DNA from: Salvelinus alpinus
Taxonomy: Eukaryota > Chordata > Actinopteri > Salmoniformes > Salmonidae
Direction of reading: 5' to 3'
Length of the DNA stretch: 64,000 bases
NCBI RefSeq assembly: GCF_045679555.1
Contig: NC_092087.1
Coordinates: 88,558,966 to 88,622,965, forward strand
Part shown: one piece after another, positions 3,486 through 56,656 of the stretch
Numbering within the stretch: the first letter of the stretch is position 1
Layout: the number at the start of each line of letters is the position of its first letter
Made by a program: the position numbers and the translations under genes
The notes under the pieces: model-generated
Databases searched by the model: none
What the model was told of the DNA's origin: nothing
Seen by the model: only the letters and a program-made list of their open reading frames with translations

Positions 3486-4912
3486 TCAGGGTTGCCATGG
3501 TTTCCTGTCTCTTCCTCTCTGGTCAGGCTTGTGTTTGAAGCAACACTTGTCACCATAGAAACAGCCGGTGGTCCTCCAGAAGAAACACTCGTCACCATTG
3601 ATGGGAGCCATCCTCCTGGTCCTGGGAGAGAGAGAGAAAAACAGTATGAAAACACAAACACCTGCACCTGTGCTCCTGCTTCCTCCTTCCATCACTTTGT
3701 ACATTTCAAAAGTTTATATGAGTTGATTGGTAACACTTTAGAAAAACTCATAATGATGTTTTGAATGACAGACGGATGTCCTTACCCTGTGGAGGCGTAC
3801 TGGGAGGCTGAGGAGGTGTTGAGGCCTATAGGGTTGGTCCTCTGAGGAGAGGGAGGGGTTCTCTGCATCCAGCGGTCTGGGTACCTGATCACCAGCCTGG
3901 TGCTCTCCAGCTCCACCCCCTGAACAGGAGGACAAACTGCAAGCGCAGTCCAAATACATACAATTGAACCAAAAGCATAGTCCCAAAAGTACAATGAAAC
4001 GAATAACATTGCATTTTATTTTATAACCACCAGAAAGGAGTTGAATCGTTGTACTTTTCTCTCTGTGTTGGACAATGATGATACTATTTATGTGCAAGAC
4101 TCAAGCTCTCCACTGAAGGCTCTTGACTCTGTGTATCATACAGAGACGTCTAACTCACCATTGTGATCTCTACAGTGCTGTCAGGTGGACATCAGTAGCA
4201 ACACGCAGGCTCAAACCCTGGTACATTCTTATTCAGAAGACCATTTAATAAGGAAAACTGCCATTATATATATCCTCTCTTCTAGCAGGAAATGAGAACA
4301 CATACAAACTCACATCTCAATCTTGTTTAATGCTAACACTACCCAAAATTTGAATCAAACATGTGAAAAAGTCCTTTCATTATTCAGCACCTTGATCTTG
4401 GAATGTCTTTCCTTGGAGGAGTTCAAAGGTTAAATAGATGAACAGGTTATTGAGACATGTAGCTGTTTCTAGTTGTCAGTCCATGTCACTAGTTTGCATT
4501 GCCTTTTTTTAAGCCCCCGTTCCCACAGGAGACCTTTTGCATCTTGCCAGGCCGCCATTGTAAATGAGAATTTGTTCTTAAATGACTTGTCTGGTTAAAT
4601 AAAGATTAAATAAAGATTATCCTAAAAGTGCAATGGAACCAATAGCATAGTCCTAAAAGTACAATAGAACCAATCACGTAGTCCTAAGCGTACAATGGAA
4701 CCAATGGCATAGTCCCAAAAGTACAATCGAAGCAATAGCATGGTCCCAAGAGTACAAACCCCTTAAGTTCAAGCTAAAAAAATTCAAGCACATCTCACAT
4801 AGTTAAATGCATATGACAGCATTATGTTTCATCCCACCTCTCACCTTTAGCCTCTCCAAGGTGCAAGTGGACATGTTGGGATTCTTGAAGTTGACAAAGG
4901 TACATAATCTCT
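3486..4912 (-). CDS. 3' exons of a TPR-RRM-CCCH protein, left copy
   Basis: Three phase-consistent minus-strand exons are seen. About 4845-4912 encodes CTFVNFKNPNMS, an RRM RNP1-like strand, then TLERLK, and ends at a GTGAGA donor. Exon 3786-3919 begins GVELESTRLVIRYPDRW, the end of the RRM fold. Exon 3486-3621 encodes MAPINGDEC and a CCCH zinc finger with spacing C-x7-C-x5-C-x3-H (CFFWRTTGC, GDKC, FKH), then stops after RDRKPWQP. The product is probably an RNA-binding protein with a C-terminal zinc finger. The frame stays open for about 20 more codons beyond the TGA, and the duplicate reads cysteine at that codon, so this stop may be a recent truncation. The upstream exons of the same gene are probably those at 11.8 and 12.2 kb. 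I do not recognise the named orthologue. The weakest point is the acceptor of the RRM exon, which could be at any of several AGs. Confidence 0.7.
4535..4615 (+). mobile_element. SINE/LINE 3' tail fragment
   Basis: The sequence runs from gccattgtaaatgagaattt to ggttaaataaagattaaata, the 3' tail shared by salmonid SINEs and their L2-type partner. It is present at the equivalent place in the right duplicate (61795-61865), so it is older than the segmental duplication. Confidence 0.75.
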
Positions 4913-5109: not shown

Positions 5110-8100
5110 TCCACAGTCAGAGGAGAGGTCCACCATTGGAGTCCTGAGGGGAGGAGAGGTCCACCACTGGAGTCCGGAGGGGAGGAGAGGTCCACCACCG
5201 GAGTCCATAGGGGAGGAGAGGTCCACCACTGGAGTCCATAGGGGAGGAGAGATCCACCATTGGAGTCCTGAGGGGAAGAGAGGTCCACCACTGGAGTCCT
5301 GAGGGGAGGAGAGGTCCACCACCGGAGTCCTGGGGGGAGGAGAGGTCCACCCCTGGAGTTCATAGGGGAGGAGAGGTCCATCACTGGAGTTCATAGGGAA
5401 GGAGAGGTCCACCACTGGAGTCCTGGGGGGAGGAGAGGTCCACCACTGGAGCTCATAGGGGAGGAGAGGTCCACCACTGGAGTTCATAGGGGAGGAGAGG
5501 TCCACCACTGGAGTCCTGAGAGGAGGAGAGGTCCACCACTGGAGTCCTGAGAGGAGGAGAGGTCCACCACTGGAGTCCTAATGGGAGGAGAGATCCACCA
5601 CTGGAGTCCTGAGAGGAGGAGAGGTCCACCACTGGAGACCTGAGAGGTGGAGAGGTCCACCACTGGAGTCCTGAGAGGGAGGAGAGGTCCACCACTGGAG
5701 TCCTGAGGGGAGGAGAGGTCCAACACTGGAGTCCTGAGGGGAGGAGAGGTCCACCACTGGAGTCCTGAGGGGAGGAGAGGTCCACCACTGGAGTCCAGAG
5801 GGGAGGAGAGGTCCACCACTGGAGTCCATAGGGGAGGAGAGGTCCACCACTGGAGTCCATAGGGGAGGAGCGGTCCAACACTGGAGCACATAGGGGAGGA
5901 GAGGTCCAACACTGGAGTCCTAATGGGAGGAGAGGTCCAACACTGGAATCCTGAGGGGAGGAGAGGTCCAACACTGGAGTCCTGAGGGGAGGAGAGGTCC
6001 ACCACTGGAGTCCTGAGGGGAGGAGCGGTCCAACACTGGAGCACATAGGGGAGGAGAGGTCCAACACTGGAGTCCTAATGGGAGGAGAGGTCCAACACTG
6101 GAATCCTGAGGGGAGGAGAGGTCCAACACTGGAGTCCTGAGGGGAGGAGAGGTCCACCACTGGAGTCCTGAGGGGAGGAGAGGTCCACCATCGGAGTCCT
6201 GAGGGGAGGAGAGGTCCATCACTGGAGTCCTGAGGGGAGGAGAGGTCCACCACTGGAGTCCATAGTGGAGAAGAGATCCACCATTGGAGTCCTGAGGGGA
6301 GGAGAGGTCCACCACTGGAGTCCTGAGGGGAGGAGAGGTCCACCACTGGAGTCCTGGGGGGAGGAGAGGTCCACCACTGGAGATCATAGGGGAGGAGAGG
6401 TCCATCACTTGAGTTCATAGGGGAGGAGAGGTCCACCACTGGAGTCCTGGGGGGAGGAGAGGTCCGCCACTGGAGTTCATAGGGGAGGAGAGGTCCACCA
6501 CTGGAGTTCATAGGGGAGGAGAGGTCCACCACTGGAGACCTGAGAGGAGGAGAGGTCCACCACTGGAGTTCATAGGGGAGGAGAGGTCCACCACTGGAGT
6601 TCATAGGGGAGGAGAGGTCCACCACTGGAGACCTGAGAGGAGGAGAGGTCCATCACTGGAGTCCTGAGAGGAGGAGAGGTCCACCACTGGAGTCCTAATG
6701 GGAGGAGAGATCCACCACTGGAGTCCTGAGAGGAGGAGAGGTCCACCACTGGAGACCTGAGAGGTGGAGAGATCCACCACTGGAGTCCTGAGAGGGAGGA
6801 GAGGTCCATCACTGGAGTCCTGAGGGGAGGAGAGGTCCATCACTGGAGTCCTGAGGGGAGGAGAGGTCCACCACTGGAGTCCATAGGGGAGGAGAGGTCC
6901 ACCATTGGAGTCCTGAGGGGAGGAGTGGTCCATCACTGGAGTCCTGAGGGGAGGAGAGTTCCACCACTGGAGTCCTGGGGGGAGGAGAGGTCCACCACTG
7001 GAGACCTGAGAGGAGGAGAGGTCCACCACTGGAGTCCTGAGGGGAGGAGAGGTCCACCACTGGAGAACTGAGAGGAGGAGAGGTCCACAACTGGAGTCCA
7101 TAGGGGAGGAGAGGTCCACCACTGGAGAACTGAGAGGAGGAGAGGTCCACCACTGGAGTCCGGAGGGGAGGAGAGGTCCACCACCGGAGTCCATAGGGGA
7201 GGAGAGGTCCACCACTGGAGTCCATAGGGGAGGAGAGATCCACCATTGGAGTCCTGAGGGGAAGAGAGGTCCACCACTGGAGTCCTGAGGGGAGGAGAGG
7301 TCCACCACTGGAGTCCTGGGGGGAGGAGAGGTCCACCCCTGGAGTTCATAGGGGAGGAGAGGTCCATCACTGGAGTTCATAGGGAAGGAGAGGTCCACCA
7401 CTGGAGTCCTGGGGGGAGGAGAGCTCCACCACTGGAGCTCATAGGGGAGGAGAGGTCCACCACTGGAGTTCATAGGGGAGGAGAGGTCCACCACTGGAGA
7501 CCTGAGAGGAGGAGAGGTCCACCACTGGAGTCCTGAGAGGAGGAGAGGTCCACCACTGGAGTCCTAATGGGAGGAGAGATCCACCACTGGAGTCCTGAGA
7601 GGAGGAGAGGTCCACCACTGGAGACCTGAGAGGTGGAGAGGTCCACCACTGGAGTCCTGAGAGGGAGGAGAGGTCCACCACTGGAGTCCTGAGGGGAGGA
7701 GAGGTCCACCACTGGAGTCCTGAGGGGAGGAGAGGTCCACCACTGGAGTCCTGAGGGGAGGAGAGGTCCACCACTGGAGTCCATAGGGGAGGAGAGGTCC
7801 ACCACTGGAGTCCATAGGGGAGGAGAGGTCCACCACTGGAGTCCATAGGGGAGGAGAGGTCCACCACTGGAGTCCATAGGGGAGGAGCGGTCCAACACTG
7901 GAGCACATAGGGGAGGAGAGGTCCAACACTGGAGTCCTAATGGGAGGAGAGGTCCAACACTGGAATCCTGAGGGGAGGAGAGGTCCAACACTGGAGTCCT
8001 GAGGGGAGGAGAGGTCCACCACTGGAGTCCTGAGGGGAGGAGCGGTCCAACACTGGAGCACATAGGGGAGGAGAGGTCCAACACTGGAGTCCTAATGGGA

Positions 8101-11100
8101 GGAGAGGTCCAACACTGGAATCCTGAGGGGAGGAGAGGTCCAACACTGGAGTCCTGAGGGGAGGAGAGGTCCACCACTGGAGTCCTGAGGGGAGGAGAGG
8201 TCCACCATCGGAGTCCTGAGGGGAGGAGAGGTCCATCACTGGAGTCCTGAGGGGAGGAGAGGCCACCACTGGAGTCCATAGTGGAGAAGAGATCCACCAT
8301 TGGAGTCCTGAGGGGAGGAGAGGTCCACCACTGGAGTCCTGAGGGGAGGAGAGGTCCACCACTGGAGTCCTGGGGGGAGGAGAGGTCCACCACTGGAGAT
8401 CATAGGGGAGGAGAGGTCCATCACTTGAGTTCATAGGGGAGGAGAGGTCCACCGCTGGAGTCCTGGGGGGAGGAGAGGTCCGCCACTGGAGTTCATAGGG
8501 GAGGAGAGGTCCACCACTGGAGTTCATAGGGGAGGAGAGGTCCACCACTGGAGTCCTGAGAGGGAGGAGAGGTCCATCACTGGAGTCCTGAGGGGAGGAG
8601 AGGTCCATCACTTGAGTTCATAGGGGAGGAGAGGTCCACCACTGGAGTCCTGGGGGGAGGAGAGGTCCGCCACTGGAGTTCATAGGGGAGGAGAGGTCCA
8701 CCACTGGAGTTCATAGGGGAGGAGAGGTCCACCACTGGAGACCTGAGAGGAGGAGAGGTCCACCACTGGAGTCCTGAGAGAAGGAGAGGTCCACCACTGG
8801 AGTCCTAATGGGAGGAGAGATCCACCACTGGAGTCCTGAGAGGAGGAGAGGTCCACCACTGGAGACCTGAGAGGTGGAGAGGTCCACCACTGGAGTCCTG
8901 AGAGGGAGGAGAGGTCCACCACTGGAGTCCTGAGGGGAGGAGAGGTCCAACACTGGAGTCCTGAGGGGAGGAGAGGTCCACCACTGGAGTCCTGAGGGGA
9001 GGAGAGGTCCACCACTGGAGTCCATAGGGGAGGAGAGGTCCACCACTGGAGTCCATAGGGGAGGAGAGGTCCACCACTGGAGTCCATAGGGGAGGAGCGG
9101 TCCAACACTGGAGCACATAGGGGAGGAGAGGTCCACCACTGGAGTCCTAATGGGAGGAGAGATCCACCACTGGAGTCCTGAGAGGAGGAGAGGTCCACCA
9201 CTGGAGTCCTGAGAGGGAGGAGAGGTCCATCACTGGAGTCCTGAGGGGAGGAGAGGTCCATCACTGGAGTCCTGAGGGGAGGAGAGGTCCACCACTGGAG
9301 TCCATAGGGGAGGAGAGGTCCACCATTGGAGTCCTGAGGGGAGGAGTGGTCCATCACTGGAGTCCTGAGGGGAGGAGAGTTCCACCACTGGAGTCCTGGG
9401 GGGAGGAGAGGTCCACCACTGGAGACCTGAGAGGAGGAGAGGTCCACCACTGGAGTCCTGAGGGGAGGAGAGGTCCACCACTGGAGAACTGAGAGGAGGA
9501 GAGGTCCACAACTGGAGTCCATAGGGGAGGAGAGGTCCACCACTGGAGAACTGAGAGGAGGAGAGGTCCACCACTGGAGTCCATAGGGGAGGAGAGGTCC
9601 AACACTGGAGTCCTGAGGGGAGGAGAGGTCCAACACTGGAGTCCTAATGGGAGGAGAGGTCCACCACTGGAATCCTGAGGGGAGGAGAGGTCCAACACTG
9701 GAGTCCCGAGGGGAGGAGAGGTCCAACACTGGAGTCCATAGGGGAGGAGAGGTCCACCACTGGAGTCCAGACAGGAGGAGAGGTCCACCACTGGAGTCCT
9801 GAGGGGAGGAGAGGTCCACCACTGGAGTCCTGGGGGGAGGAGAGGTCCACCACTGGAGACCTGAGAGGAGGAGAGGTCCGCCACTGGAGTCCTGAGGGGA
9901 GGAGAGGTCCACCACTGGAGTCCTGGGGGGAGGAGAGGTCCACCACTGGAGACCTGAGAGGAGGAGAGGTCCGCCACTGGAGTCCTGAGGGGAGGAGAGA
10001 TCCACCACTGGAGAACTGAGAGGAGGAGAGGTCCACCACTGGAGTCCATAGGGGAGGAGAGATCCACCACTGGAGTCCTGAGAGGAGGAGAGGTCCACCA
10101 CTGGAGACCTGAGAGGAGGAGAGGTCCAACACTGGAGTCCTGAGGGGAGGAGAGGTCCAACACTGGAGTCCTAATGGGAGGAGAGATCCACCACTGGAAT
10201 CCTGAGGGGAGGAGAGGTCCAACACTGGAGTCCCGAGGGGAGGAGAGGTCCAACACTGGAGTCCATAGGGGAGGAGAGGTCCACCACTGGAGTCCAGACA
10301 GGAGGAGAGGTCCACCACTGGAGTCCTGAGGGGAGGAGAGATCCACCACTGGAGTCCTGGGGGGAGGAGAGGTCCACCACTGGAGACCTGAGAGGAGGAG
10401 AGGTCCACCACTGGAGACCTGAGAGGAGGAGAGGTCCAACACTGGAGTCCTGAGGGGAGGAGAGGTCCAACACTGGAGTCCTAATGGGAGGAGAGATCCA
10501 CCACTGGAATCCTGAGGGGAGGAGAGGTCCAACACTGGAGTCCCGAGGGGAGGAGAGGTCCAACACTGGAGTCCATAGGGGAGGAGAGGTCCACCACTGG
10601 AGTCCAGACAGGAGGAGAGGTCCACCACTGGAGATCATAGGGGAGCAGAGGTCCATCACTTGAGTTCATAGGGGAGGAGAGGTCCACCGCTGGAGTCCTG
10701 GGGGGAGGAGAGGTCCGCCACTGGAGTTCATAGGGGAGGAGAGGTCCACCACTGGAGTTCATAGGGGAGGAGAGGTCCACCACTGGAGTCCTGAGAGGGA
10801 GGAGAGGTCCATCACTGGAGTCCTGAGGGGAGGAGAGGTCCATCACTTGAGTTCATAGGGGAGGAGAGGTCCACCACTGGAGTCCTGGGGGGAGGAGAGG
10901 TCCGCCACTGGAGTTCATAGGGGAGGAGAGGTCCACCACTGGAATCCTGAGGGGAGGAGAGGTCCAACACTGGAGTCCCGAGGGGAGGAGAGGTCCAACA
11001 CTGGAGTCCCGAGGGGAGGAGAGGTCCAACACTGGAGTCCAGACAGGAGGAGAGGTCCACCACTGGAGTCCTGAGGGGAGGAGAGGTCCACCACTGGAGT

Positions 11101-11500
11101 CCTGGGGGGAGGAGAGGTCCACCACTGGAGACCTGAGAGGAGGAGAGGTCCGCCACTGGAGTCCTGAGGGGAGGAGAGGTCCACCACTGGAGAACTGAGA
11201 GGAGGAGAGGTCCACCACTGGAGTCCATAGGGGAGGAGAGGTCCACCACTGGAGTCCATAGGGGAGGAGAGGTCCAACACTGGAGTCCTGAGGGGAGGAG
11301 AGGTCCAACACTGGAGTCCTAATGGGAGGAGAGGTCCAACACTGGAATCCTGAGGGGAGGAGAGGGCCAACACTGGAGTCCTGAGGGGAGGAGATGTCCA
11401 CCACTGGAAGTCCATAGAGGAGGAGAGGTCCACCACTGGAGTCCAGACAGGAGGAGAGGTCCACCACTGGAATCCTGAAGGGGGGGAGAGGTCCTCCCCT
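5110..11500 (-). repeat. 31-bp minisatellite, about 6.4 kb
   Basis: About 205 copies of a 31-bp unit (gaggtccaccactggagtcc plus tgaggggagga on the plus strand). Frequent variants replace gtcctgagg with gtccatagg, gttcatagg, gacctgaga or gtcctaatg. A few units are 32 bp. Because 31 is not divisible by 3, three units give a 31-codon period, and the consensus on the minus strand has no stop in any frame. Long overlapping reading frames such as 8680-10101 result, reading VDLSSPQDSSGGPLLPSGL and similar. Higher-order structure is visible: a block near 5171 recurs near 7157, and one near 6010 near 8032. The right duplicate holds only about 0.6 kb (62412-63029), where the array is bounded by splice-site-like sequences. 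Confidence 0.95.
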
Positions 11501-12183: not shown

Positions 12184-12288
12184 TATGAGCTGCAGGACCT
12201 CGCAGTAGAAGAGCTTAGTGGAGGCCTCCTCACAGTCCTGATCCAGCTTCAACACCTGCTGCATGGCCCTCTCTGCCTCACCATACTG
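12184..12288 (-). CDS. TPR exon of the TPR-RRM-CCCH gene, left copy
   Basis: A 105-bp, 35-codon exon starts QYGEAERAMQQVLKLDQDC and ends FYCEVLQLI. The pattern (G-E-A, A-M-x-x-V-L-x-L-D) is one tetratricopeptide helix pair, a protein-protein interaction motif. The acceptor is a pyrimidine-rich tract ending CCAG before CAGTATGGTGAGG. The donor is GTGAGG. The exon is open and begins and ends in phase 0, matching the UBA-like exon that follows. Its first bases and its acceptor are the seed of the 64-bp array immediately upstream. Exons further 5' are not seen: the array runs straight into receptor-cassette sequence at 13185, so the left copy appears to have lost its 5' part. Confidence 0.6.
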
Positions 12289-13185
12289 CTGGAGAGAGAA
12301 GAGGGGAGGAAGAGAGGGGGAAAAGGGAGGGGAGAGTTGCCTCACCATACTGCTGGAGAGAGAAGAGGGGAGGAAGAGAGGGGGAAAAGGGAGGGGAGAG
12401 ATGCCTCACCATACTGCTGGAGAGAGAAGAGGGGAGGAAGAGAGGGGGAAAAGGGAGGGGAGGGTTGCCTCACCATACTGCTGGAGAGAGAAGAGGGGAG
12501 GAAGAGAGGGGGAAAGGGAGGGGAGAGATGCCTCACCATACTGCTGGAGAGAGAAGAGGGGAGGAAGAGAGGGGGAAAAGGAGGGGAGAGTTGCCTCACC
12601 ATACTGCTGGAGAGAGAAGAGGGGAGGAAGAGAGGGGGAAAAGGGAGGGGAGAGTTGCCTCACCATACTGCTGGAGAGAGAAGAGGGGAGGAAGAGAGGG
12701 GGAAAAGGGAGGGGAGAGATGCCTCACCATACTGCTGGAGAGAGAAGAGGGGAGGAAGAGAGGGGGAAAAGGGAGGGGAGGGTTGCCTCACCATACTGCT
12801 GGAGAGAGAAGAGGGGAGGAAGAGAGGGGGAAAAGGGAGGGGAGAGTTGCCTCACCATACTGCTGGAGAGAGAAGAGGGGAGGAAGAGAGGGGGAAAAGG
12901 GAGGGGAGAGATGCCTCACCATACTGCTGGAGAGAGAAGAGTGGAGGAAGAGAGGGGGAAAAGGGAGGGGAGGGTTGCCTCACCATACTCCTGGAGAGAG
13001 AAGAGGGGAGGAAGAGAGGGGGAAAGGGAGGGGAGAGATGCCTCACCATACTGCTGGAGAGAGAAGAGGGGAGGAAGAGAGGGGGAAAAGGGAGGGGAGA
13101 GTTGCCTCACCATACTGCTGGAGAGAGAAGAGGGGAGGAAGAGAGGGGAAAAAGGGAGGGGAGAGTTGCCTCACCATACCATAAA
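12276..13185 (-). repeat. 64-bp minisatellite carrying a splice acceptor
   Basis: About 14 tandem copies of a 64-bp unit. On the minus strand each unit holds a C/T-rich tract, CCAG, and the first bases of the TPR exon (CAGTATGGTGAGGCA). Units differ mainly in aaaa versus aaa and in gagag versus gaggg steps. One unit near 12978 has tcctgg in place of gctgg. The array therefore spans an intron-exon boundary, and each unit also holds a GTGAGG donor-like string. Confidence 0.93.
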
Positions 13186-13301
13186 ACACACATCCTACAC
13201 AGTATAGATGTCAACCCTACTCCCTATCAGTCTGGTCCTGAAGGGCCCTCAGATAAATCCACTGTGTCTCTCACTCACTCACTCACTCTCACACACACAC
13301 A

Positions 13302-13385
<84 letters not shown>

Positions 13386-13590
13386 TGCATGTCTATTTTG
13401 CCCTGGTTAATCATCTCATCACTATGTAGATCAACACTCCTACACTGAGACACTTTATGAATACTGACCCTGATGTAACAACCAAAACACAGCTCAAAAC
13501 ATAACAACAAGTAAAATGATACATTAACCTCAAGTATATGACTTATTACTAAAAACAAATATCCCAAAACTATATTTCAAGATATTGTCA
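13186..13590. other. Receptor first-intron sequence fused to the 64-bp array, with a CA microsatellite
   Basis: From ataaaacacacatcctacac onwards the sequence matches the first intron of receptor gene 1 at 28615-28990, so 13185 is a breakpoint between two unrelated loci. It includes a CA/CACG microsatellite at about 13290-13378. No exon is seen. Confidence 0.7.
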
Positions 13591-13601
13591 AGAGTACTTA
13601 C

Positions 13602-13750
13602 AGAGTGAAGTGAAGGGGAGAGGTCTTGTACAATGAGTCAACTTACTGGTAGTGCATGGAAACTGACATTAAAAGTGTGTTGTCTGTGGTTGATACATAT
13701 TTAAAGTAGTTAAGACACAAGTAGCTGATGCAGAACTTCCTTCCTCTTTA
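13602..13750 (-). promoter_or_regulatory. Receptor promoter/first-exon cassette 2 (no gene body seen)
   Basis: This is a minus-strand non-coding exon ending at a GTAAGT donor, with a TTTAAATA TATA-like element near 13700 and an AAAGAGGAA PU.1/ETS-type box at about 13741-13748. All three elements line up with cassette 3 of intact gene 1. Downstream on the minus strand lies the truncated TPR gene rather than a receptor, so the cassette has lost its gene or now drives something else. Confidence 0.6.
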
Positions 13751-15089
13751 AGTCATTAACATGCATGAAGACCAGACCAGCACATAGAAAGGGGAGGTTA
13801 CTGTATTTCAATAGAAAATGTACAACAGACTGCATATTTAGTTGCCTTTCTTCATTTGAGTACTGGGCTTACATTGTTTTAAACGTGGCCCATTTACAAT
13901 GTATTCTATTGACTAAATACAGAATCATGTTTACTATAGCCTACTATTTTACTGTAGCCTCCCTCTGAGTTCTACATGGAACAGGTCAAAGTTCCATTTA
14001 CATTTAGTCAGTTCCATGATGTCATTCATTCTATTCTACAAACACATTCAATTTACACTCCTCATCAGCTGCATCAAAGTGCTACTGACGGTTCCAGTTT
14101 TCTAGACTAGAGCTCCACCTACTGGCATCTCAACATTACTGCAGCCGTCAGATATGAATGTCCTCAATAATGTTGGGATAATAACAACATTACAAACTGG
14201 AAATTAATCAGATAAAATGGTGAAAAACAACACTGTCTAGTACTTGACAGTCACATTTAATAAGCACACAAACACGTGTAGTGAAATCCTGCATGGAGTC
14301 TTCACGGTACACTTTAAGAGCGCAGCAGCAGTCAGGAAGGAGGAAATCAAGACGGCTCTTCCGGCTCAGTGTCGGAGCTCTCGATTGGCGGGGCAGTTTT
14401 GACGGGTGTGTTCAACTCCGCTTACGTCTTGTTTGGTTTCAGCTTGCTTAGTTTATAACATTTCTAAGTGTGATCGCTGTTGTTATCGCGCTACTCCTGA
14501 CGAGTTGGAAGCGTTCTGGCCTCTGATCTCATCGATTACTAGCAACATTGTTGCAAACTTTTGTCAAACGAACAACCAAGGATTGTGTCGGACGGACAAA
14601 TACACGTTCAAGCCTGGACACAACAGCTAAGCCCATCTCTCTTTCTATCTCCTTCAGTGAAATATGTTCTCTCTTAGTGCTGCTCTCTCTTCATGTTCAG
14701 AGCCTTTAGTGAACTAATAATGCACTTTGGGACTGTTTGACATTTTAGGTAAAGGGAGGTTGCTGAGTGTTTTGAACTTTATTGATTTTGTGTGGGACAA
14801 CAGAAATCTGGACATTTTTAAGTCCTTTTTTGTCTATGAACACACCTACACACACCCATTCATACCCCCTCCCTCCTCCACTTGGAGGTAATACAGAATA
14901 TTGCAAATTCTCTAAGTTTTATTACTGCGTTCTTTCTTGTCCATTGTTTCTAGGAAGTTGCCTTTGAATTACTTTGCCATTAATCTTGTATGAGTTATTA
15001 TTGGTTAGGTTACCCCTGTGCTGTGACTTGTCTTCTCCTTTCTCCCCACTGGCTATCTGGCCAACAGGCTTACCTATAGTCAGTCTCTT

Positions 15090-15812
15090 CTGCTAATGTG
15101 TCTGGTAGTGGTTCTCTATCTATCCTACTCTTTTCAGTTCAACAGGTTAATACCTGTCTGGTAGTGGTTCTCTATCTATTCTACTCTTTTCAGTTCAGCA
15201 GGTTAATACCTGTCTGGTAGTGGTTCTCTATCTATCCTACTCTTTTCAGTTCAGCAGGTTAATACCTGTCTGGTAGTGGTTCTCTATCTATTCTACTCTT
15301 TTCAGTTCAACAGGTTAATACCTGTCTGGTACTGGTTCTCTATCTATCCTACTCTTTTCAGTTCAGCAGGTTAATACCTGTCTGGTAGTGGTTCTCTATC
15401 TATCCTACTCTTTTCAGTTCAACAGGTTAACACCTGTCTGGTACTGGTTCTCTATCTATCCTACTCTTTTCAGTTCAGCAGGATAATACCTGTCTGGTAG
15501 TGGTTCTCTATCTATTCTACTCTTTTCAGTTCAGCAGGTTAATAGTGGTTCTCTATCTATCCTACTCTTTTCAGTTCAGCAGGTTAATACCTGTCTGGTA
15601 GTGGTTCTCTATCTATCCTACTCTTTTCAGTTCAGCAGGATAATACCTGTCTGGTAGTGGTTCTCTATCTATTCTACTCTTTTCAGTTCAACAGGTTAGT
15701 ACCTGTCTGGTAGTGGTTCTCTATCTATCCTACTCTTTTCAGTTCAGCAGGTTAATACCTGTCTGGTAGTGGTTCTCTATCTATTCTACTCTTTTCAGTT
15801 CAGCAGGTTAAA
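15090..15812. repeat. 56-bp minisatellite
   Basis: About 13 copies of a 56-bp unit containing cctgtctggtagtggttctc, tatctatcctactc and cagttcagcaggttaata. One unit near 15541 is shortened. A further partial unit (gttaacatctgtctgg) lies at about 18050 beyond the nested insertion, showing that the insertion split the array. Confidence 0.95.
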
Positions 15813-18052
15813 ACTTCTTGCCACTAGGGGAGTGCCATTTCGACATAGTCCAGATTCGTCTCCAAATTAAACTGCCTCGTACTCAATTCTTGCTCGTACA
15901 ATATGCATATTATTATTAGTATTGGATAGAAAACACTCTCTAGTTTCTAAAACCGTTTGAATTATGTCTGTGGGTGAAACAGAACTCGACTTAGAGCGAT
16001 TTTCCTATGTGTATGTCAGAATTCAGAATTGTACTGGCTGTTCTGAGATCTGTGTATTAATTTGCCTGTCCTCTATTGGTTGAGATGCACTGCATACGCC
16101 TTCCCCTGGGTGTCAGCGAATAGGGAGACTTGAAATGGAGTCTCTGTGTAATTCCCAAAGTTTATAAATTGATTGGAATCACGGTGGCCATTCTTTGGGA
16201 TCTGCGCTCGGGCGCGAAGAGGAGCTTTGCATATCGTTGTGGAAGCTCTGGTTTTAGCTCCTTAGATAATTCCGGTCATGTTTTTATTCGATATAAGCTT
16301 TAAAGACATCATAATCTTGTTATTTTGAACCGAATTATTTCAGTTTATATCAGTTTATTGCGATTTTCTGGCATTTCTTTGTGACGCACTTTCAAGAGTT
16401 GGACACTTTCCCTGTACATGCCGAACGTTAGTGGCCATTTCGACAGGACAAGAGGACATCTTTCGACCAAAAGACGATTAGACCGGAGAAAGGACACATT
16501 GCCCAAGATTCTGATGGAAGCTCAGCTAATAGTAAGAACTATTTATGCTGATAAATCGTTGTTCTGTTGAAAAATGGTAAACGCATAAGCTGCCATTTTT
16601 TGGGGGGTAGCTTCGCTTTGGCGCAACTTGTATTGCGCAGTAAGGTTAATTTTAAAAATGTAATTCAGCGATTGCATTAAGAACTAATTTGTCTTTCAAA
16701 TGCTGTCCACGCTGTATTTTTTAGTCAAGTTTATGATTATTTAATGATTAGACTAAGTCACTCTCCAAGATGGCGCCCGACATTTTCTGCCCAGTTTAGC
16801 TACTTTTCTCATTGTATAACCACGATTTGTGATGCTAAATATGCACATTTTCGAACAAACTCTATATGCATTGTGTAATATGATGTTACAGGACTGTCAT
16901 CTGAAGAATTCTGAGAAGGTTAGTGAAAAAATTAATATATTTTGGTGGCGATAACGTTATCACCCCTTTTGCATTGATTCAATGCTGGGGTGATGTTAGC
17001 TCATGTGGTATGCTAATATAACGATATATTGTGTTTTCGCTGTAAAACACTTAGAAAATCTGAAATATTGTCTGGATTCACAAGATCTGTGTCTTTCGAT
17101 TGCTGTAGGCTGTGTATTTTTCTGAAATGTTTTAGGATGAGTATTTTGGTAATTGACGTCGGTCTCTGTAATTATTCCGGCTGCTTCCAACGCTATTTCA
17201 GATTGCAGCTGCAATGTACAACTGTGATTTATACCTGAAAAATGCACATTTTTCTAAAAAAAAATATCCTATACCATAAATATGTTATCAGACTGTCATC
17301 TTATGAAGTTGTTTCTTGGTTAGTGGCTATATATATCTTTATTTAGTCGAATTAGTGATAGCTACTGATGCAGGAAAAAAATGGTGGACAAAAAAAAGTT
17401 GTGTCTTTTGCTATGGTGGTTAGCTAATAGAAATACATATTTTGTCTTCCCTGTAAGACACTTAGAAAATCTGAAATATTGTCTGGATTCACAAGATCTG
17501 TGTCTTTCGATTGCTGTAGGCTGTGTATTTTTCTGAAATGTTTTAGGATGAGTATTTTGGTAATTGACGTCGGTCTCTGTAATTATTCCGGCTGCTTCCA
17601 ACGCTATTTCAGATTGCAGCTGCAATGTACAACTGTGATTTATACCTGAAAAATGCACATTTTTCTATAAAAAAAATATCCTATACCATAAATATGTTAT
17701 CAGACTGTCATCTTATGAAGTTGTTTCTTGGTTAGTGGCTATATATATCTTTATTTAGTCGAATTAGTGATAGCTACTGATGCAGGAAAAAAATGGTGGA
17801 CAAAAAACAGTTGTGTCTTTTGCTATGGTGGTTAGCTAATAGAAATACATATTTTGTCTTCCCTGTAAAACATTTAAAAAATCGGAAATGATGGCTGGAT
17901 TCACAAGATCTGTATCTTTCATTTGGTGTCTTGGACTTGTGATTTCATGAACATTTGATTATATGATATCCCTGTGGCTTTAGGCTAGGCTATGCTAGTC
18001 AGCTTTTTTGATGGGGGGGATCCCGGATCCGGGTTTGTGACTCTATAAAGTT
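15813..18052. mobile_element. Salmonid interspersed element nested in the 56-bp array
   Basis: A 2.2-kb insertion is flanked by gtta on both sides. It shares its body with 33610-34915: tgcctcgtactcaattcttg, gatagaaaacactctctagt, and the tgaaatattgtctggattca block. No transposase or reverse transcriptase frame is visible, so it looks like a non-autonomous element. It carries an internal tandem duplication (separate entry). Confidence 0.65.
17030..17880. repeat. 411-bp internal tandem duplication
   Basis: The block starting acacttagaaaatctgaaat at about 17046 recurs at about 17457, with a third diverged start at about 17868. The first two copies are nearly identical, including their minus-strand reading frames (16996-17247 and 17362-17658), which are not considered genes. 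Confidence 0.85.
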
Positions 18053-18309
18053 AACATCTGTCTGGCGCCCGAACATAAAACCTTTCTCTTTACTTCTCTC
18101 TAACAACACTGCTACAAACTGATGTCTGTATTGGTACAACATGTCAATGTCATATTCTGTTACACAGTTTCTGTCTCAAATGGCACCCTAATCCCTATAT
18201 AGTGCAATACTTTTGACCGGGGGGGGGGGGGGGGTGTTCGTTCCAGGGGATGACTGATATCATGCACTCCATCCATGATACAGTATGATGGGAATGTGTT
18301 TGTCAGCAG

Positions 18310-18757
18310 CAAACCACCCTGCATCGCACTGCTAGCTTGATTCTAAGCAGGGTTGGTCCCTGGATGGGAGACCAGATGCTGCTGGAAGTGGTGTTGGAGG
18401 GCCAGTAGGAGGCACTCTTTCCTCTGGTCTAAAAAAATTATCCCAATGTCCCAGGGCAGTGATTGGGGACATTACCCTGTGTAGGGTGCCGTCTTTCAGA
18501 TGGGATGCTAAACGGGTGTCCTGACTCTCTGGTCACTAAAGATCCCATGCCACTTATCATAAGAGTAGGGGTGTTAACCCTGGTGTCCTTGCTAAATTCC
18601 CAATCTGTCCCTCATACCATCACGGTCACCTAATCACCCCCAGCTTCCAATTGTCTGATTCATCCCCCTCCTCTCCCTGTAACTATTCCCCAGGTCGTTG
18701 CTGTAAATGAGAATGTGTCCTCAGTCAACTTACTTGGTTAAATAATATAAAAAAACG
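18310..18757 (+). mobile_element. 5S-rRNA-derived SINE
   Basis: The head (tctaagcagggttggtccct, then ggatgggagaccagatgctg) follows the 3' half of 5S rRNA, including the internal promoter region. The body (ccctgtgtagggtgccgtct, ttcagatgggatgctaaacg) and the L2-like tail (gtaaatgagaatgtgtcctc, ttggttaaata) fit a SINE3-type retroposon. It is not a functional 5S gene: the 5' part is diverged and no 5S terminator follows. A G-run at about 18219-18235 precedes it. Confidence 0.8.
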
Positions 18758-18769
18758 TACCCCTGTATG

Positions 18770-18912
18770 CAGAACAATTTACCCATGGAGCATGTCAGGC
18801 AGAGTGTGTAGATTGACGGGAAAATAAACAATTTCATCCATTTTAGAATAAGGCTGTAACTCAACAAAATGTGGAAAAAGTCAAGGGGTCTGAATACTTT
18901 CTGAATCCACTG
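18770..18912. mobile_element. Tc1-like transposon arm
   Basis: The sequence ends in ggaaaaagtcaaggggtctg, aatactttctgaatccactg, the terminal repeat type of salmonid Tc1/mariner elements. The same arm with more internal sequence is at 39085-39390. No transposase is present. Confidence 0.6.
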
Positions 18913-19990
18913 TGGGCCTTGATTGAATCCTAATGTGCTTGTAGACAATGCTTTTATTTAAAGGCAGAGTTCCTGCGTTAGTGGAGATCACATTCAAGGT
19001 AAACACAGCAGATGTCAGCTCAATTGGAAATGACCTTTAAATGCTTTAGCACGGTTTCTAATTGGATCCAGGCCCCAGGGTTAGATACGTCTACATCCAT
19101 TGTTTTTCACAAGGGTTTTAAAAGGACCCTCTAGACATAACCTCCTTATTGTTGCATTCTGACTTTGTGAACAACCAAAAGGTCAAATAGAGGTTGCTTA
19201 TATTTGTCCTGTTTCAGATGTAAGTGTGTAACATGTACAGTGTGTGTGGTGTGAAATGGAAATAGTTTGTTGCATATCCCACTCCTCCTGAGACACCCTC
19301 GGGGAGGAGAAAGCGTTGCATATTCAGCTGTTTCTCTGTTAGAAAATGGACAAGAACAAAGATGGTGTGGTCACCACTGAGGAATTTCTGGACAAGGTGC
19401 CCATATTGACCCCCACAGCCTCCACCCCTAGCTCTCCTCTATCCCCAAACACAGACTCATTAGGGCTGTCAGGGGGGTAAAATGTACCCCCTCCATGGAT
19501 CTCCACTCTCCCATCCGGCCCAATATCTACTGTTTGTTTACTGAATTCTGTGTTATTATTTAGTTAGTAAATATATAAGCCAATTTGTATATTGCTGATT
19601 CATTATGGAAACCAGAGTTCGTGCAGATAACCAATAATTTTACGACGTTCAGATGAGACTGAATGAGGTAAAGAATAATTGATGACTGAAATGTAAGAGA
19701 TTTAGATCTGTAAGAGTTCATTCGGAAGACGGAACTCCTTTAAATAATATTCTCGTGGTGCCCCAGGTTATTACTGAGTTAATTGTTACATGATTTAATT
19801 CAATCACGTAATCAATTAAACGTTAGGTAATCGATTTAATAAAATAGCATGCCATCACATTAATGACATTCACAGACACTACAAAGTGATAAGAAACGTT
19901 GCATCAGAACCTTGAGGCAAAATATTACCATAACTTTGTCATAAAACCAATAATAAATGTATATGAACAAACCAAGTAAACATATATCAT
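18913..19990. other. Intergenic stretch with one exon-like island
   Basis: Apart from the EF-hand exon at 19343-19396 nothing is recognised. The rest is AT-rich and has no long reading frame. Confidence 0.5.
19343..19396 (+). pseudogene. Isolated EF-hand exon, KChIP-like
   Basis: After a pyrimidine-rich acceptor (tttctctgttag) 18 codons read KMDKNKDGVVTTEEFLDK. The loop D-x-N-x-D-G-x-V-x-x-x-E has all calcium-ligand positions of a canonical EF-hand. The start KMDKNKDGVVT matches the last EF-hand of Kv-channel-interacting proteins, where from memory an exon also begins at this lysine. The position of a donor reads CAAG-GTGCCC, which is weak. Otherwise the frame runs on through a Ser/Pro-rich stretch to a stop at about 19480. 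No other exon of such a gene is seen nearby, so it is probably a dispersed fragment. Confidence 0.45.
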
Positions 19991-20009
19991 GTATCATCTA
20001 ACAGTACTA

Positions 20010-20170
20010 TATATTGTAATAGAATAGTACAGTACAGTATAATGTAATAGTACAGTACTGTATAATGTAATAGAATAGTACAGTACTGTGTAATGTAATA
20101 GAATAGTACAGGACTGTATAATGTAATAGAATAGTACAGGACTGTATACTGTAATAGAATAGTACTGTAG
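20010..20170. repeat. AT-rich tandem repeat, about 28-bp unit
   Basis: About five copies of a unit containing gtaatagaatagtacagtac and tgta. It is unrelated to the 28-bp array at 49-52.7 kb. Confidence 0.85.
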
Positions 20171-20399
20171 ATTAGAAGTATTGTTCCTGTGAGCGAACAT
20201 CAAGAAGAAATTAAAAGATATTTCTAATGTTCTCAGCCTTCATATAAAATATAACTGGACGTCGAGGCTATTTTAGAAATACAAAGCAAAGTTATTGTGT
20301 TCAGATTCTATTCCATGTTACTTAAAAAATGAATGGAAAAATATTTAACATAATTATTTACAAGGTTCCCCCTCTTATTCATCATAGTTTAAAAGGCAA

Positions 20400-20700
20400 A
20401 ACTGACCCTAGATCAGCTCTCCAACTAAGTGTGAATACAGTAGTCCTGTGTGTTGGTAGAGCATGGTGCTGACCCTAGATCAGCTCTCCAACTAAGTGTG
20501 AATACAGTAGTCCTGTGTGTTGGTAGAGCATGGTGCTGACCCTAGATCAGCTCTCCAACTAAGTGTGAATACAGTAGTCCTGTGTCTCAGTTGGTAGAGC
20601 CTGGTGTATGGGTTCAATTCCCAATGGGGCCACCGGCATGAAAGATGGATCCACAAAGTGTTTCTAAATGGCATATCATGATATATTATTATAACACTTA
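20400..20700 (+). repeat. 67-bp triplication running into a tRNA-like SINE head
   Basis: The unit ctgaccctagatcagctctc, caactaagtgtgaatacagt, agtcctgtgt occurs three times (from 20402, 20469 and 20536). The last copy continues into tctcagttggtagagc and gggttcaattccc, the A- and B-box-like parts of a tRNA-derived SINE, up to about 20700. The first two copies stop after ttggtagagcatggtg, so part of the SINE head was copied with the unit. Confidence 0.75.
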
Positions 20701-20734
20701 GTTTGACTATACAGGTCCAGATATACAGGGTTTC

Positions 20735-21365
20735 TGTCAAACTTGTTGTGTTCAGGTCTTCTTGGTTCTGGGTTTGTTGTGTTCAGGTCCTCTTGGTTCT
20801 GGGTTTGTTGTGTTCAAGTCTTCTTGGTTTGTTGTGTTCAGGTCTTGGTTCTTGGTTTGTTGTGTTCAGGTCTTGGTTCTTGGTTTGTTGTGTTCGGGTC
20901 CTCTTGGTTCTGGGTTTGTTGTGTTCAGGTCTTCTTGGATTTGGGTTTGTTGTGTTCAGGTCTTCTGGGTTTGTTGTGTTCAGGTCCTCTTGGTTCTGGG
21001 TTTGTTGTGTTCAGGTCCTCTTGGTTCTGGGTTTGTTGTGTTCAAGTCTTCTTGGTTTGTTGTGTTCAGGTCTTGGTTCTTGGTTTGTTGTGTTCAGGTC
21101 CTCTTGGTTCTGGGTTTGTTGTGTTCAGGTCTTCTTGGTCCTTGGTTTGTTGTGTTCAGGTCCTCTTGGTTCTGGGTTTGTTGTGTTCAGGTCTTCTTGG
21201 TCCTTGGTTTGTTGTGTTCAGGTCCTCTTGGTTCTGGGTTTGTTGTGTTCAGGTCTTCTTGGATTTGGGTTTGTTGTGTTCAGGTCCTCTTGGTTCTGGG
21301 TTTGTTGTGTTCAGGTCCTCTTGGTTCTGGGTTTGTTGTGTTCAGGTCTTCTGGGTTTGTTGACT
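20735..21365 (-). repeat. 31-bp minisatellite growing from a receptor tail exon
   Basis: About 20 copies of a 31-bp unit (gttcaggtcctcttggttct, gggtttgttgt). It starts directly at the 3' end of the short ITIM terminal exon of gene 1. The equivalent place at gene 2 (39735-39790) has only about two units. The sequence is unrelated to the 31-bp array at 5-11.5 kb. The plus-strand frames (for example 20703-21374) are repeat artefacts. Confidence 0.93.
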
Positions 21366-21413
21366 CTACTATAGATCGCAGAGGAGTCCTCAGCTGCTTG
21401 TGCTGCCGTTGGT
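21311..21413 (-). CDS. Candidate alternative terminal exon of receptor gene 1
   Basis: After a CTTCAG acceptor the frame reads PTAAQAAEDSSAIYSRVNKP and stops inside the first units of the 31-bp array. The acceptor phase (one base, then whole codons) fits the membrane-span exon of gene 1, which ends with two bases of an arginine codon, so splicing past the other tail exons would give a short tail with a Y-x-x-V motif. A homologous exon sits at the same relative place in gene 2. Whether it is used is inference. Confidence 0.5.
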
Positions 21414-21734
21414 CTGAAGAGAGAGAAACAGAAATTAAACAGAATCTGCAACCCAAAAAACCCTTCTTATACTCTTTATAGTGCATTACTTTGACCAAGG
21501 CCTAAATGGCTCTGGTGAAAAGTAGTGCACTAAATAGGGAATAGGGTTCCATTTGGAACACAGCACAGTTCCTCAAAACCACCACTCTCTCATTATATTG
21601 TTGGGTTTGTAAGGAAATGCCGTCACTAGTGGCCACTAGGGGTCAACTCTTTCGCTTATTAATGATGTCATGGTCTTCTCGTCCAATAAGCAGCAGCATA
21701 TGAATGAGCTGTAATCAAGAATAAAGCTTGTTTA

Positions 21735-22380
21735 CAACCAAATCTAAAAACATATGGAACTGGAATGTTATAGGAGGGTCAGATTTTCTTTGGGCGAATT
21801 CACTTGTTTTTGAGAAACTATCCCCAAGCATCTATTCACTTCCTCATCCTCGTTGTTCAGTAAGTGGCTCCAAAAACACCCAAAACATCCTTTTAGAAAC
21901 TAAAAAGCTCTAAGTAGTCTACAGTGATGCAGGTCTTTACATGTTGTACACATGAAATCTGTCATTCAGAACTTAATCCACAACGTTATGTTCCATGTTG
22001 TTGAGACTTGAACGATGCTTCTCGTCCGTTCTAGCAGCATGATACACTGAGAATGGAACAGTTGGACGGGGAAACAGCACGAGTCACACAACGGAATATA
22101 ACGTTGTGGATAAAGTTTGGAATGACACTTTCATGTGTACAACTGTTCCATCTAAAGTCCTGCATCACTATACTGAGAGCTTTCTGTTTCTAAAAGACGT
22201 ATTTGGGTGTTTTTGGAGCATTTGTTCATGTTTTTAAGAGCCTCTACTGCACAACGAGGATGAGGAAGTGAATCGCTGGTTGGGGAAAGTTTCTCTAAAA
22301 CAAGGGAAGTCACTATAAAAGGTGTCTGGACCTTTCTATAACATGGCATTTATATAAAAAATATAAATTTGGTTGTAAAA
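21735..22380. mobile_element. Foldback (long inverted repeat) element
   Basis: The left arm (about 21735-22000) and the right arm (about 22090-22380) are imperfect inverse copies. Accaaatctaaaaacat faces atataaatttggt, cttcctcatcctcgttgt faces acaacgaggatgaggaag, and ttaatccacaacgttat faces ataacgttgtggataa. The loop is about 90 bases. The element has no reading frame and is probably a MITE. Confidence 0.7.
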
Positions 22381-22456
22381 AAGCCAACTTCTGCTTTAAT
22401 GTGGTGTATCCACAATGCTCTAGAATTGGCACTGTTGTTGTAATGGCAGAATATGC

Positions 22457-25400
22457 TCACCGGTTGGCAGCACTGGGGCAGTTGAATTTCACAGCATCGT
22501 ACTGGACATCCTCTTCCTGTTTCTGGGGTTTACACAGCTGAACGGTGGAGTACAGAGGCACTTCCTGGATTTTTAAGCGAGAGAAGTGGACGCTGGCATA
22601 GTGAACGTCATCCTGGTCGACTGTGGCCGCTGTCTGTGCTGCAGTAGGAGTCATGACCATGCCTGAGACGTTTTCATACACTGGACTAGAGTCTCCCTGA
22701 TGGGAAGAAGACAGACAACATAATGAGAAGAAATGTCCCACAAAGCAATACAAATAATCTGATAGTAACAGACTCACCTGTACATTCTCTGCTCTGTCTC
22801 TTGTGTCAGAGATGGATTTGGAGGCCTTCTTTCTGTTTTTAAATTAAATAATTCATTTATTATTGAAAGAATGAATGAATCAATCAATGATTAAATTAAG
22901 TTAATAAAAAGTGTTAGAGTGAAATAATCGTTAAAAGATCACTCACCTGAACCACATGAGTCCAGAGAGACAGAGGATGAGAACCAGAACAACCACTATG
23001 ATTCCTACAGCTGCAGTCAGAACTGAGGACTGTTTCTCTAAAAGATAATGTAGATGATACGAGTCCTGGCATGTTATAAACTGAAAATTAACATAGTACA
23101 GGACAATAATACAATGTTTGTTAAGGGATCTCATCTCAACGTATATATAATTAAAAAACATTATAAGCCTAATTATTAATATTAGTTTGAAACGTCATTT
23201 TGTGTTGAAATATTGAAGATGAATCTTCACCTGGTAAAATGATCATCAGAGCTGTAGAGTTCCTAGATCCTCTTCCATTCCAGGCCTCACAGTGGTAATG
23301 TCCATTGTCCTTAGACTTGAAGTTACTTATGTTGTACATCTGTCCAGATCCATTTAGAAAAGTCTCATTTTGAAAGTACCAGGTGTATTTGTCCACAGGT
23401 GGGTTGGCATCACTGCTGCAGGTCAGAGTCACTGAACTGCCCTCCACTATTTCACCAGAGGGACTGACTAACACTGAGGTGTTCCTTGGACCATCTGGTG
23501 TAGAATACATTGTATTTATTTATAGCAACACTTGTGTTTACATTTTACGGGTGAGTTTGAAATAATTTATAAATTATAATAAATTATTAATTCAGAGCAA
23601 AAGAAATTCTGAAACAGAATCACTTAAAATAATGATGACATTGTGGTAAAGCACATTCAGGGAAATGGATGTGTCACGATCGTGTGGAGAGACGGACCAA
23701 GACGCAGCGTGATTCGAGTTCCACATCTTTATTTTTAGTGAAACTTAAAATAAACCAAGAAACAAACAATGACCGTGCAGTACTGAGGTGCAACATGCAC
23801 TCACTCAAAAACAATATCCCACAAAGCAGGTGGGAGAAAGGGCTTCCTAAATATGATCCCCAATTACAGGCAACGATTACCAGCTGCCTCTAATTGGGAA
23901 CCATACAAACCAGCCACATAGAAAATAAATGACTAGAACACCCCCCTAGTCACGCTCTGACCTAAACACCATAGAGAACCGAGGGCTCTCTATGGTCAGG
24001 GAGTGACAGGATGTTACACACTAAAATATTAATTGATAGATATATTTATGTGGAAAACAATCTATTCCCAAGTATCAACATGATCAGTATATCAAACTGG
24101 ACATCGAATCCTCCAATGTACTTACATGTGACAGTGAGAGTCTCTTCAGCAGAGGGGAGATCCTCATAGCCTTCTACAGCACAGGAGTATCTGCCTGTAT
24201 CCTCACTGCTGACTGAGAACAGGATATAGACAGGAGAGTAGGTGTTGCTGTTTGGTATAGGCTGTCCATTCTTATACCAACTGTAGGCTGTGATGGGGTC
24301 CAGTGTACAGTTGGTTCTACATGTCAGTGTGACATTCTCCCTCTCTGACACAGATGTAGGATCCATCTCCAACACAACATCTAGAATAAAATGAAACATA
24401 TCATTATTATCCTCCTATATATGTCCTCTTATGTGAAATATTACATTTGTTTTTTTCCCTGTTACATAACACTGCAGTGTCTGTATGACTGCATTTTAAA
24501 AAGGTAATTACGGTCATTAATTTGATATATTTAGCCAGGACAGTCAACTTTGTAATAATTTCAACAGTTTTCCAGGAAATCCTGGGTTCCATAGTATCAA
24601 TAAAACAGATTAAAACACAACATACTCATTAGCATACATAGAAAACAACACTCACATTACAGCTATCTAGATATGTGTCATAGATGTGAGATGTATGACA
24701 GATTACCTGTGACAGTCAGGGAGACACGTGAGCCAGAAAACTTTCCTCCAGATGTTATGAATCTGAACCTGTACACAGCAGAGTCACTCAGTCTCAGGTC
24801 TGTGATTCTCAGGGTACAGTCATTCTTCTTATCCCCAAGGTACTCTATATGACCCTCATAGCCTGCCACAGAGCTCAGATCTTCAGCCTCCATACCAGAC
24901 CATTTGGTAAACCAGAAAGCTGTTTTTATTTCATGGTAACTGGGATATGTGTAAGAGCAGGATATGTTCACTGTTGACCCCTTCAAGGCACAGATACTCT
25001 GATGGGTGTAAGTCACACTCCAACACTTCTGACCTGAAATACAAGAAGACAATAGAACACCTTTATAAAATTCTTAATTACAATATCTACTGTATACACT
25101 TATGCTGTTACGTTCCTCAGCAAGAAAACCTAAAATGTAACCAAAACAAAAGTGGGAATTAACAAAAGAGTCACTGACAAAGACAAAAATGAGACCAGTG
25201 GGTTCTGAAAGACACTCATGGGGGTGTCCATTGAAAATTGACTATCAACAACAACTGGAACCAAAAAGACATGAGCGCCCACAACATTTGCCCAAGAAGA
25301 GGCAAACAAAATAAAACTCCACATGCCAGCACAGTTGTAACACATACTGACTAACGAGTGATGCCAATCGGGGCACCCCACCTCCAAATATAAATGGGGG

Positions 25401-28315: not shown

Positions 28316-28994
28316 TTATTGAACAGATGTGTAGAACTGTAAACACATATTTCTACATTGATTGTGCTGAAGCTGTTTTATTCTCAGGAGCCCAAATACA
28401 GGAGGATAAATGTCAATCCTCTACGGTCCGTCAAGCTGTACAGCAGCCTAGAGACTGAACACCAGGTTCAATATAGCTTCTACCTGAAAGCTGTGAGTCT
28501 AAACAGCAAGTGACTCTCTCACCCACCCCCCCCCCCAATCTGTGGTGAAGGCCCATAAGGCCCATGGAGTCTGTATCAAAGTCTAGAGAGCTGGTTGTTA
28601 TGGATGTAGAAAGTTAAAACACACGTCCTACACAGTATAGATGTCAACCCTACTCCCTATCAGTCTGGTCCTAAAGGGCCGTCAGCTAAATCTATTGTGT
28701 CATTCACACACATGGGGGCGAACACGTACACACACACAGACTGACACAAACAGACACACACACTGCAGTGTTACAATGTTTGTCTGCATGTCTATTTTAC
28801 CCTGGTTAATCATCTCATCACTATGTAGATCAACACTCCTACACTGAGACACTTTATGAATACTGACCCTGATGTAACAACCAAAACACAGATCAAAACA
28901 TAACAAGAAGTAAAATGATACATTACCCTCAAGTAAATGACTTATAGCTACAAACTAATAACCCAAAACTATATTTCAAGATATTGTCAACAGT

Positions 28995-29150
28995 ACTTAC
29001 AGAGTGAAGTGAAGGGAGAGGTCTTGTACAGTGAGTCAACTGACTGGTAGTGAGTGGGATCTGCTAGTAAGTGTCAGTTCTGTGGTTGATACATATTTAT
29101 AGTAGAACACAAGTAGCTGATACAGAACTGTCCTTTCCTTCCTCTTTAAG
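28995..29150 (-). promoter_or_regulatory. Promoter and non-coding first exon of gene 1 (cassette 3)
   Basis: On the minus strand a perfect TATAAATA lies at 29094-29101. It is followed by a short leader that ends at 29001 with the donor GTAAGTACTG. The next exon would begin at 27743 (CTGCAG acceptor), 16 bases before the ATG. An AAAGAGGAAG box (29139-29148), which fits the PU.1/ETS consensus of blood-cell promoters, sits about 40 bases upstream of the TATA box. The start site is inferred at about 29065 from TATA spacing. Confidence 0.65.
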
Positions 29151-29445
29151 ACATTAACATGCATGAGGACCAGAACAGCATGTCAGAAAAGGGAGGTTAC
29201 TGGACAAAATGTCCCCCATTTCCACTTTTATTTAAATACAGAACCATGTTAACAATATGTTGACTATTCTATATGGAATGTTTATAATATCTCAGAATGT
29301 GTTGCCTTGTCCCTCTGAGTTCTACATGGAACAGGTCAAAGTTCCATTTACATTTGGTCAGTTCTATGATGTCATTCATTCTATTCTACAAACACATTCA
29401 ATTTACACTCCTCATCAGCTGCATCAAAGTGGTACTGAAGGTTCC

Positions 29446-54060: not shown

Positions 54061-54069
54061 TCATATGTG

Positions 54070-56655: not shown

Positions 56656-56656
56656 A

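Follow-up and report, generated by a model that had tools for sequence, protein, structure and literature searches.

A mirage-type 64-bp minisatellite at a likely intron-exon boundary in the genome of Salvelinus alpinus

A 64-bp minisatellite was identified in a 64,000-nt stretch of the Salvelinus alpinus genome (hereafter the window), and this repeat likely spans an intron-exon boundary, the exon being a prediction from sequence. Arrays of this kind are already known as the "mirages" of amphioxus, and the present array appears to be one of them in a vertebrate genome. We consider it likely that this mirage-type array is a neutral passenger beside a gene copy that may be a truncated 3' fragment. 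The array and the exon bases that its units appear to carry are located as follows:

12274..13179, minus strand: 64-bp minisatellite, 14 full units plus 13 nt (Tandem Repeats Finder and unit list)
12274..12288, minus strand: 15 putative exon bases common to the units, CAGTATGGTGAGGCA, with GAG in one unit (unit list)

Tandem Repeats Finder (TRF) reported the array at 12274-13179 with a period of 64, 14.2 copies, 96% matches, and a score of 1714. By direct reading, with the units located via the string TGCCTCACCATAC, we counted 14 full units starting at 12274, 12338, and so on to 13103, of which 11 are 64 nt long and three (at 12466, 12529, and 12976) are 63 nt long, and a 13-nt partial copy (13167-13179) closes the outer end. 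On the minus strand, the unit reads 5' to 3' as A/T, a pyrimidine tract, CTCTCCAG, CAG, and TATGGTGAGGCA; the string CCAGCAG is present in 13 of 14 units and is replaced by CCAGGAG in the unit at 12976. The first-pass annotation had described such a minisatellite with a tract, CCAG, and TATGGTGAGGCA, which both TRF and the unit list bear out, and its coordinates were correct to within a few bases. The units also follow a higher-order pattern in which a fixed series of three end variants appears three times over, with a 63-nt unit after the third end variant seen twice (12466 and 12976), and such a recurring order is expected if the array grew by duplication of multi-unit blocks. The mean column identity of the units in a MAFFT alignment was 0.937 over 91 pairs, a value depressed by the way gaps fall in the three units of 63 nt. 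All of this structure is observed directly in the DNA. The array contains 13 of the 14 homopurine/homopyrimidine runs of at least 40 nt in the window, and 13 of the 16 plus-strand clusters of G-quartet motifs found by a scan that covered G-rich plus-strand motifs only; the long homopurine runs and the G-quartet motifs of the units are probably the cause of the instability of the array.

The innermost unit runs unbroken into GAGAGGGCCATGCAGCAGG..., which is open for 105 nt (12288-12184, minus strand). Based on open frame, splice signal, and phase, we place the start of a putative first exon at this unit:

12184..12288, minus strand: putative exon of 105 nt, QYGEAERAMQQVLKLDQDCEEASTKLFYCEVLQLI, phase 0 at both ends (open frame, signals)

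This exon is open in one frame only, with stops in the other two, and the open frame requires upstream phase 0. The CAG of the unit may belong either to the intron or to the exon (CAG/CAG). The unbroken passage from the innermost unit into the open exon supports the earlier claim of a repeat across a likely intron-exon boundary, and the 14 near-identical copies agree with the claim of about 14 acceptors before one exon. A chance meeting of array and exon was ruled out because the array continues unbroken into the exon and the exon acceptor is among the strongest outside arrays. The exon had been annotated as a TPR exon; its open frame stands as a prediction, but the TPR label is weak, with both Pfam matches of the 105-nt exon peptide under the curated cut-off (TPR_2, E 0.076, 13.6 bits, cut-off 27; TPR_19, E 0.1, 13.4 bits, cut-off 25). 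The TPR_2 match covers profile positions 16-33 of 34, which is the second half, or about half a motif. No TPR match was present among the Pfam matches up to E 10 for the joined 124-aa protein described below, or in a Pfam scan of a 163-aa read of the exon region. No second copy of the 105-nt exon was found in the window; a second gene copy (copy 2) matches the first (copy 1) as far as about 63353 and diverges beyond.

Two further exons are predicted downstream:

3786..3919, minus strand: putative downstream exon, GVELESTRLVIRYPDRWMQ...YASTG, in frame with the first exon (comparison with copy 2)
3486..3621, minus strand: putative last coding exon, CCCH-like motif CFFWRTTGCFYGDKCCFKH, end KPWQP-stop (frame, Pfam)

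The three putative exons (12288-12184, 3919-3786, and 3621-3486) join in frame to a stop and would encode 124 aa, with the joins made by GT/AG borders seen in the sequence and all exon borders predicted. The last-exon peptide matches Pfam zf-CCCH_3 (E 0.0052, 17.4 bits, cut-off 31; 16.6 bits in the joined protein), and a pattern C-x7-C-x5-C-x3-H is visible by eye; the Pfam CCCH cut-off is not reached, and the motif is graded as CCCH-like only. PDB searches returned no convincing relative (best E values of 0.05, 0.11, and 0.2), and two patterns gave 0 matches in a collection of viral contigs. Both downstream exons occur again near 60.8-61.1 kb, and identity between copy 1 and copy 2 is 130/134 (97.0%) for the exon at 3786-3919, 132/136 (97.1%) for the other exon, and 1053/1124 (93.7%) for the aligned non-exon bases. 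In the first of the two exons (about 61.1 kb), copy 2 has TAG where copy 1 has TGG, and this in-frame stop makes copy 2 look broken. The second copy of the CCCH-like gene end occupies 60640-62278 on the minus strand and has an altered C-terminus. A stretch of about 150 bp of intron (about 4025-4185) is nearly identical in both gene copies, above the rest of the intron. A possible small extra exon seen by eye at about 4852-4890, NPNMSTCTLERLK, was omitted from the joined protein because conservation of its donor does not extend to copy 2.

Splice sites were scored with a vertebrate weight matrix, and YTNAY was used as the branch motif. The features that bear on splicing, together with a neighboring array, are:

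12276..12284, minus strand: donor-like ATG/GTGAGG in the putative exon start, also in each unit and the partial copy, 15 in total (score 5.2)
13180..13254, minus strand: nearest YTNAY branch-like motifs, A at 13182, 13211, 13227, and 13254 (motif scan)
5120..11494, minus strand: 31-bp minisatellite, in the intron downstream of the putative first exon, 205 copies (TRF)

The putative exon acceptor scores 8.64, a value reached by 139 of the 9190 AG sites scored in the window on both strands. Of these 139, the 64-bp array accounts for 14, the 31-bp array (5120-11494) for 108, and the stretch at 62413-63035 for 8, and the other 9 lie elsewhere. A special enrichment of acceptors in the 64-bp array was ruled out, since the 31-bp array and its copy-2 counterpart at 62413-63035 are also rich in sites of at least this score. 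Outside the 13 arrays of at least 400 bp, 3 of 3052 minus-strand AG sites reach the score of the exon acceptor, and two of these three are the putative CCCH-exon acceptors of the two gene copies. The GTGAGG donor-like string that the first-pass annotation reported in each unit was recovered, and ATG/GTGAGG scores 5.2 versus 1.8 for the exon's own putative donor ATA/GTGAGG (12184); 23 of 3127 minus-strand GT sites outside arrays reach 5.2. The scan for YTNAY found 0 motifs in the 64-bp array versus 14.5 expected at the window rate. The nearest ones are all found beyond the upstream end of the array. Their distance from the exon acceptor is 894-966 nt, with 41-48 AGs in between, and their distance from the outermost acceptor is 65-137 nt, with 2-9 AGs in between. 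Because genuine branch sites are degenerate, one could be provided by the GCAAC or GGCATC that each unit carries about 48 nt upstream of the AG, which makes the absence of YTNAY a weak argument against splicing at the units.

We infer that tandem duplication of a 64-nt segment, made up of roughly 49 nt from an intron's 3' end and the 12-15 nt that open the adjoining exon as labeled here, was followed by amplification through slippage or unequal exchange, as with the many other minisatellites in the window. If the locus is transcribed, a readable product would come only from the acceptor that touches the exon, which is the only one of the 14 copies that keeps the frame. When read in the exon's phase to the exon donor, all 13 outer acceptors lead to a stop, at codon 25, 46, or 67, and their use would add 64-829 nt to an RNA that would probably be sent to decay. 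The donor-like string would be ordinary exon coding sequence (Tyr-Gly-Glu-Ala) carried in the duplication. If splicing depended on the upstream YTNAY motifs alone, other AGs should be encountered first and the resulting RNA should be non-coding; the first AG reached would lie at or before the outermost unit, so the gene would be disrupted, not left untouched. If degenerate branch sites in each unit were used, the acceptors should be near-equal, with exon definition favoring the innermost.

The same observations could be taken to mean that the array is a splicing regulator, in which outer acceptors compete and give stop transcripts and the number of units tunes the level of functional protein. 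Fourteen near-identical strong acceptors, the stop behind every outer one, and the position of the nearest YTNAY upstream of the array, from which scanning would meet the outer AGs long before the innermost, are consistent with this role. However, the 2-9 other AGs between these motifs and the outermost acceptor, the abundance of acceptor-like strings in the neighboring array, the unproven activity of the gene, and the reports that published mirages do not disturb splicing all argue against it, and we regard regulation by the array as unlikely. The stops likewise tell against acceptor choice, which the first-pass annotation had raised, as a functional process. The version in which this is a vertebrate mirage in a live gene, where acceptor number would set the fraction of stop transcripts and length polymorphism would tune expression via competition, appears quite improbable. 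The annotation had also raised micro-exons. Each unit does carry an acceptor and, 7 nt on, a donor scoring 5.2, and the 14 GT...AG spans of 56-57 nt would leave 7-nt micro-exons between very short introns, or might be removed stepwise by nested or recursive splicing. Exons of 7 nt and introns of 56-57 nt are very short for a vertebrate, 7 nt breaks the frame unless taken in threes, and the array is devoid of YTNAY, all of which speak against functional micro-exons, and we give this reading hardly any credence.

Beyond the outer end of the array come two bases and then the border of a repeated block:

13182..14144, no strand assigned: left edge of the repeated CD22-like block, matching 28615-29494 at 78.8% (self-comparison)

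Splice signals and open frames were searched across 13182-22600, where 73 acceptor and 39 donor candidates scored at least 0, and no upstream exon of the exon-bearing gene was found. The search gave 6 open exons of 36-300 nt ending in phase 0 and, without restriction on phase, 17 open frames of 36-400 nt (overlapping variants counted apart in both), none of which appeared TPR-like by eye; the best of the 17 resembles the cytoplasmic exon of the neighboring Ig gene. A stricter pass over 13182-23000 (4 acceptors, 9 donors) detected no exon of the internal type, and its one candidate for an initial exon lay at the Ig gene. As a control, the same thresholds recovered several Ig exons of at least 200 nt both in 22600-27600 (best 8 of 10) and in 40600-44000 (best 8 of 20). 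Pfam matched nothing in the three minus frames of 13182-22501, a result that is uninformative because the scan also loses the exon's own TPR signal in its 163-aa context. These searches would miss upstream exons that have weak signals or an unusual length or that lie farther off.

The end of the array at the edge of a duplicated block and the lack of an upstream exon in the searched region suggest that the gene copy may be a 3' fragment, with the putative exon as the 5' stub of a truncated gene. It could instead be a live gene with overlooked upstream exons, because its frame is intact and joins two open exons and copy 1 is free of the stop in copy 2. A related possibility is a dead 3' fragment that has lost its upstream exons, with an array that broke or ends at the block edge and takes no part in the splicing of any coding transcript. 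This possibility shares ground with the neutral-passenger explanation and does not exclude it. The edge at 13182, the stop in the paralogous copy 2, and the failure of thresholds that recover neighboring Ig exons to yield a TPR-like one among the 6 phase-0 candidates all favor a dead fragment. The first and both downstream exons are nevertheless open in copy 1, the kinds of upstream exon named above would escape detection, and the Pfam scan is too weak for a single TPR exon, and we hold this possibility as a serious but tentative one. Pseudogene status had been named in the first-pass annotation as what would overturn its reading; the missing upstream exon and the block edge bring the gene copy near that state, since it may be a 3' fragment, but the exons of copy 1 are open.

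The surrounding locus is rich in repeats, with arrays of period at least 10 making up 34% of the window (31 merged arrays). The CD22-like Ig block is tandemly repeated, the sequence from 13182 onward corresponding to that from 28615 onward, with a partial copy near 45 kb. Two tandem CD22-like Ig genes lie on the minus strand (22461-27553 and 40394-43751), and the Ig exon at 26041-26442 matches Pfam Ig_CD22 (E 2e-8); an ITIM-like cytoplasmic exon was seen by eye near 22461-22537. A strong acceptor-like string recurs along the minus strand of the 31-bp minisatellite (5120-11494; counterpart 62413-63035). One 44-bp minisatellite is present at three places (429-846, 30153-31624, and 56655-58052) and marks repeated blocks of the locus. 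Reverse transcriptase remnants are present at 47462-48477, with an RVT_1 match for 47462-47953, and at 54008-55265, the latter by eye only.

Amphioxus mirages are minisatellite-like duplications of intron-exon boundaries, described in the lancelet genes for the globins BflGb6 and BflGb9, Adh3, troponin C, and PGBD5 (PMC3087553, PMC3902484). RT-PCR suggested regular splicing (PMC3087553), and the authors considered that units could act as cryptic sites (PMC3087553, PMC3902484). Similar to the BflGb6 mirage, in which an intron's 3' end is repeated together with the 5' part of exon 2, the unit of the 64-bp array combines an intron end with adjoining putative exon bases, the feature by which mirages are defined. 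The 64-bp unit also resembles the Adh3 mirage units of 10-72 bp in size, and the 14 acceptor-like AGs scoring at least 8.64 and 15 donor-like ATG/GTGAGG strings parallel the AG/GT signals described in many amphioxus mirage units. Different from those systems, the array has 14 copies in the one haplotype examined versus 3 and 6 in the two BflGb6 haplotypes, and its unit is 64 bp versus the 150-160 bp given for amphioxus globin mirages. The host is a fish and not a lancelet, and the gene, which may be truncated, is known here from sequence alone.

Turri et al. are said to have described, in 1995, a minisatellite of human IFI6 (6-16) with a 12-nt unit at an exon end that gives multiple splice donors. 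According to a later paper, its downstream repeat units are used as donors (PMC4526556). Both this minisatellite and the 64-bp array supply repeated splice sites, but IFI6 repeats donors with alternative transcripts reported, whereas the present array repeats acceptors recognized in the DNA only. Duplication of an intron end and exon start can give a new intron its acceptor and tract, as outlined for potato RdRp and ATP2A1 (PMC4974935), and the likeness to the array lies in the copied intron end and exon start, at the level of sequence. A VNTR in TERT intron 6 (VNTR6-1, 38-bp unit) has been linked to TERT splicing (PMC11830802) and is likewise a vertebrate minisatellite in a gene and tied to splicing; unlike the array, it is described as intronic, and that description mentions no repeated acceptors or exon bases in the unit. 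Within the partial coverage of a literature search of titles and abstract openings, no other acceptor-bearing minisatellite at a vertebrate exon appeared, only those of lancelets. The earlier view that expansion across such a boundary is rarely reported is therefore fair, but the kind itself is known from amphioxus (PMC3087553).

If the gene copy is dead, the array would be an ordinary minisatellite in a repeat-rich locus. If it is expressed, the locus would be a natural setting in which to test how the splicing machinery picks one of 14 near-identical acceptors within a single transcript. The array also illustrates that the growth of a minisatellite can carry splice signals with it, which may be raw material for intron gain.
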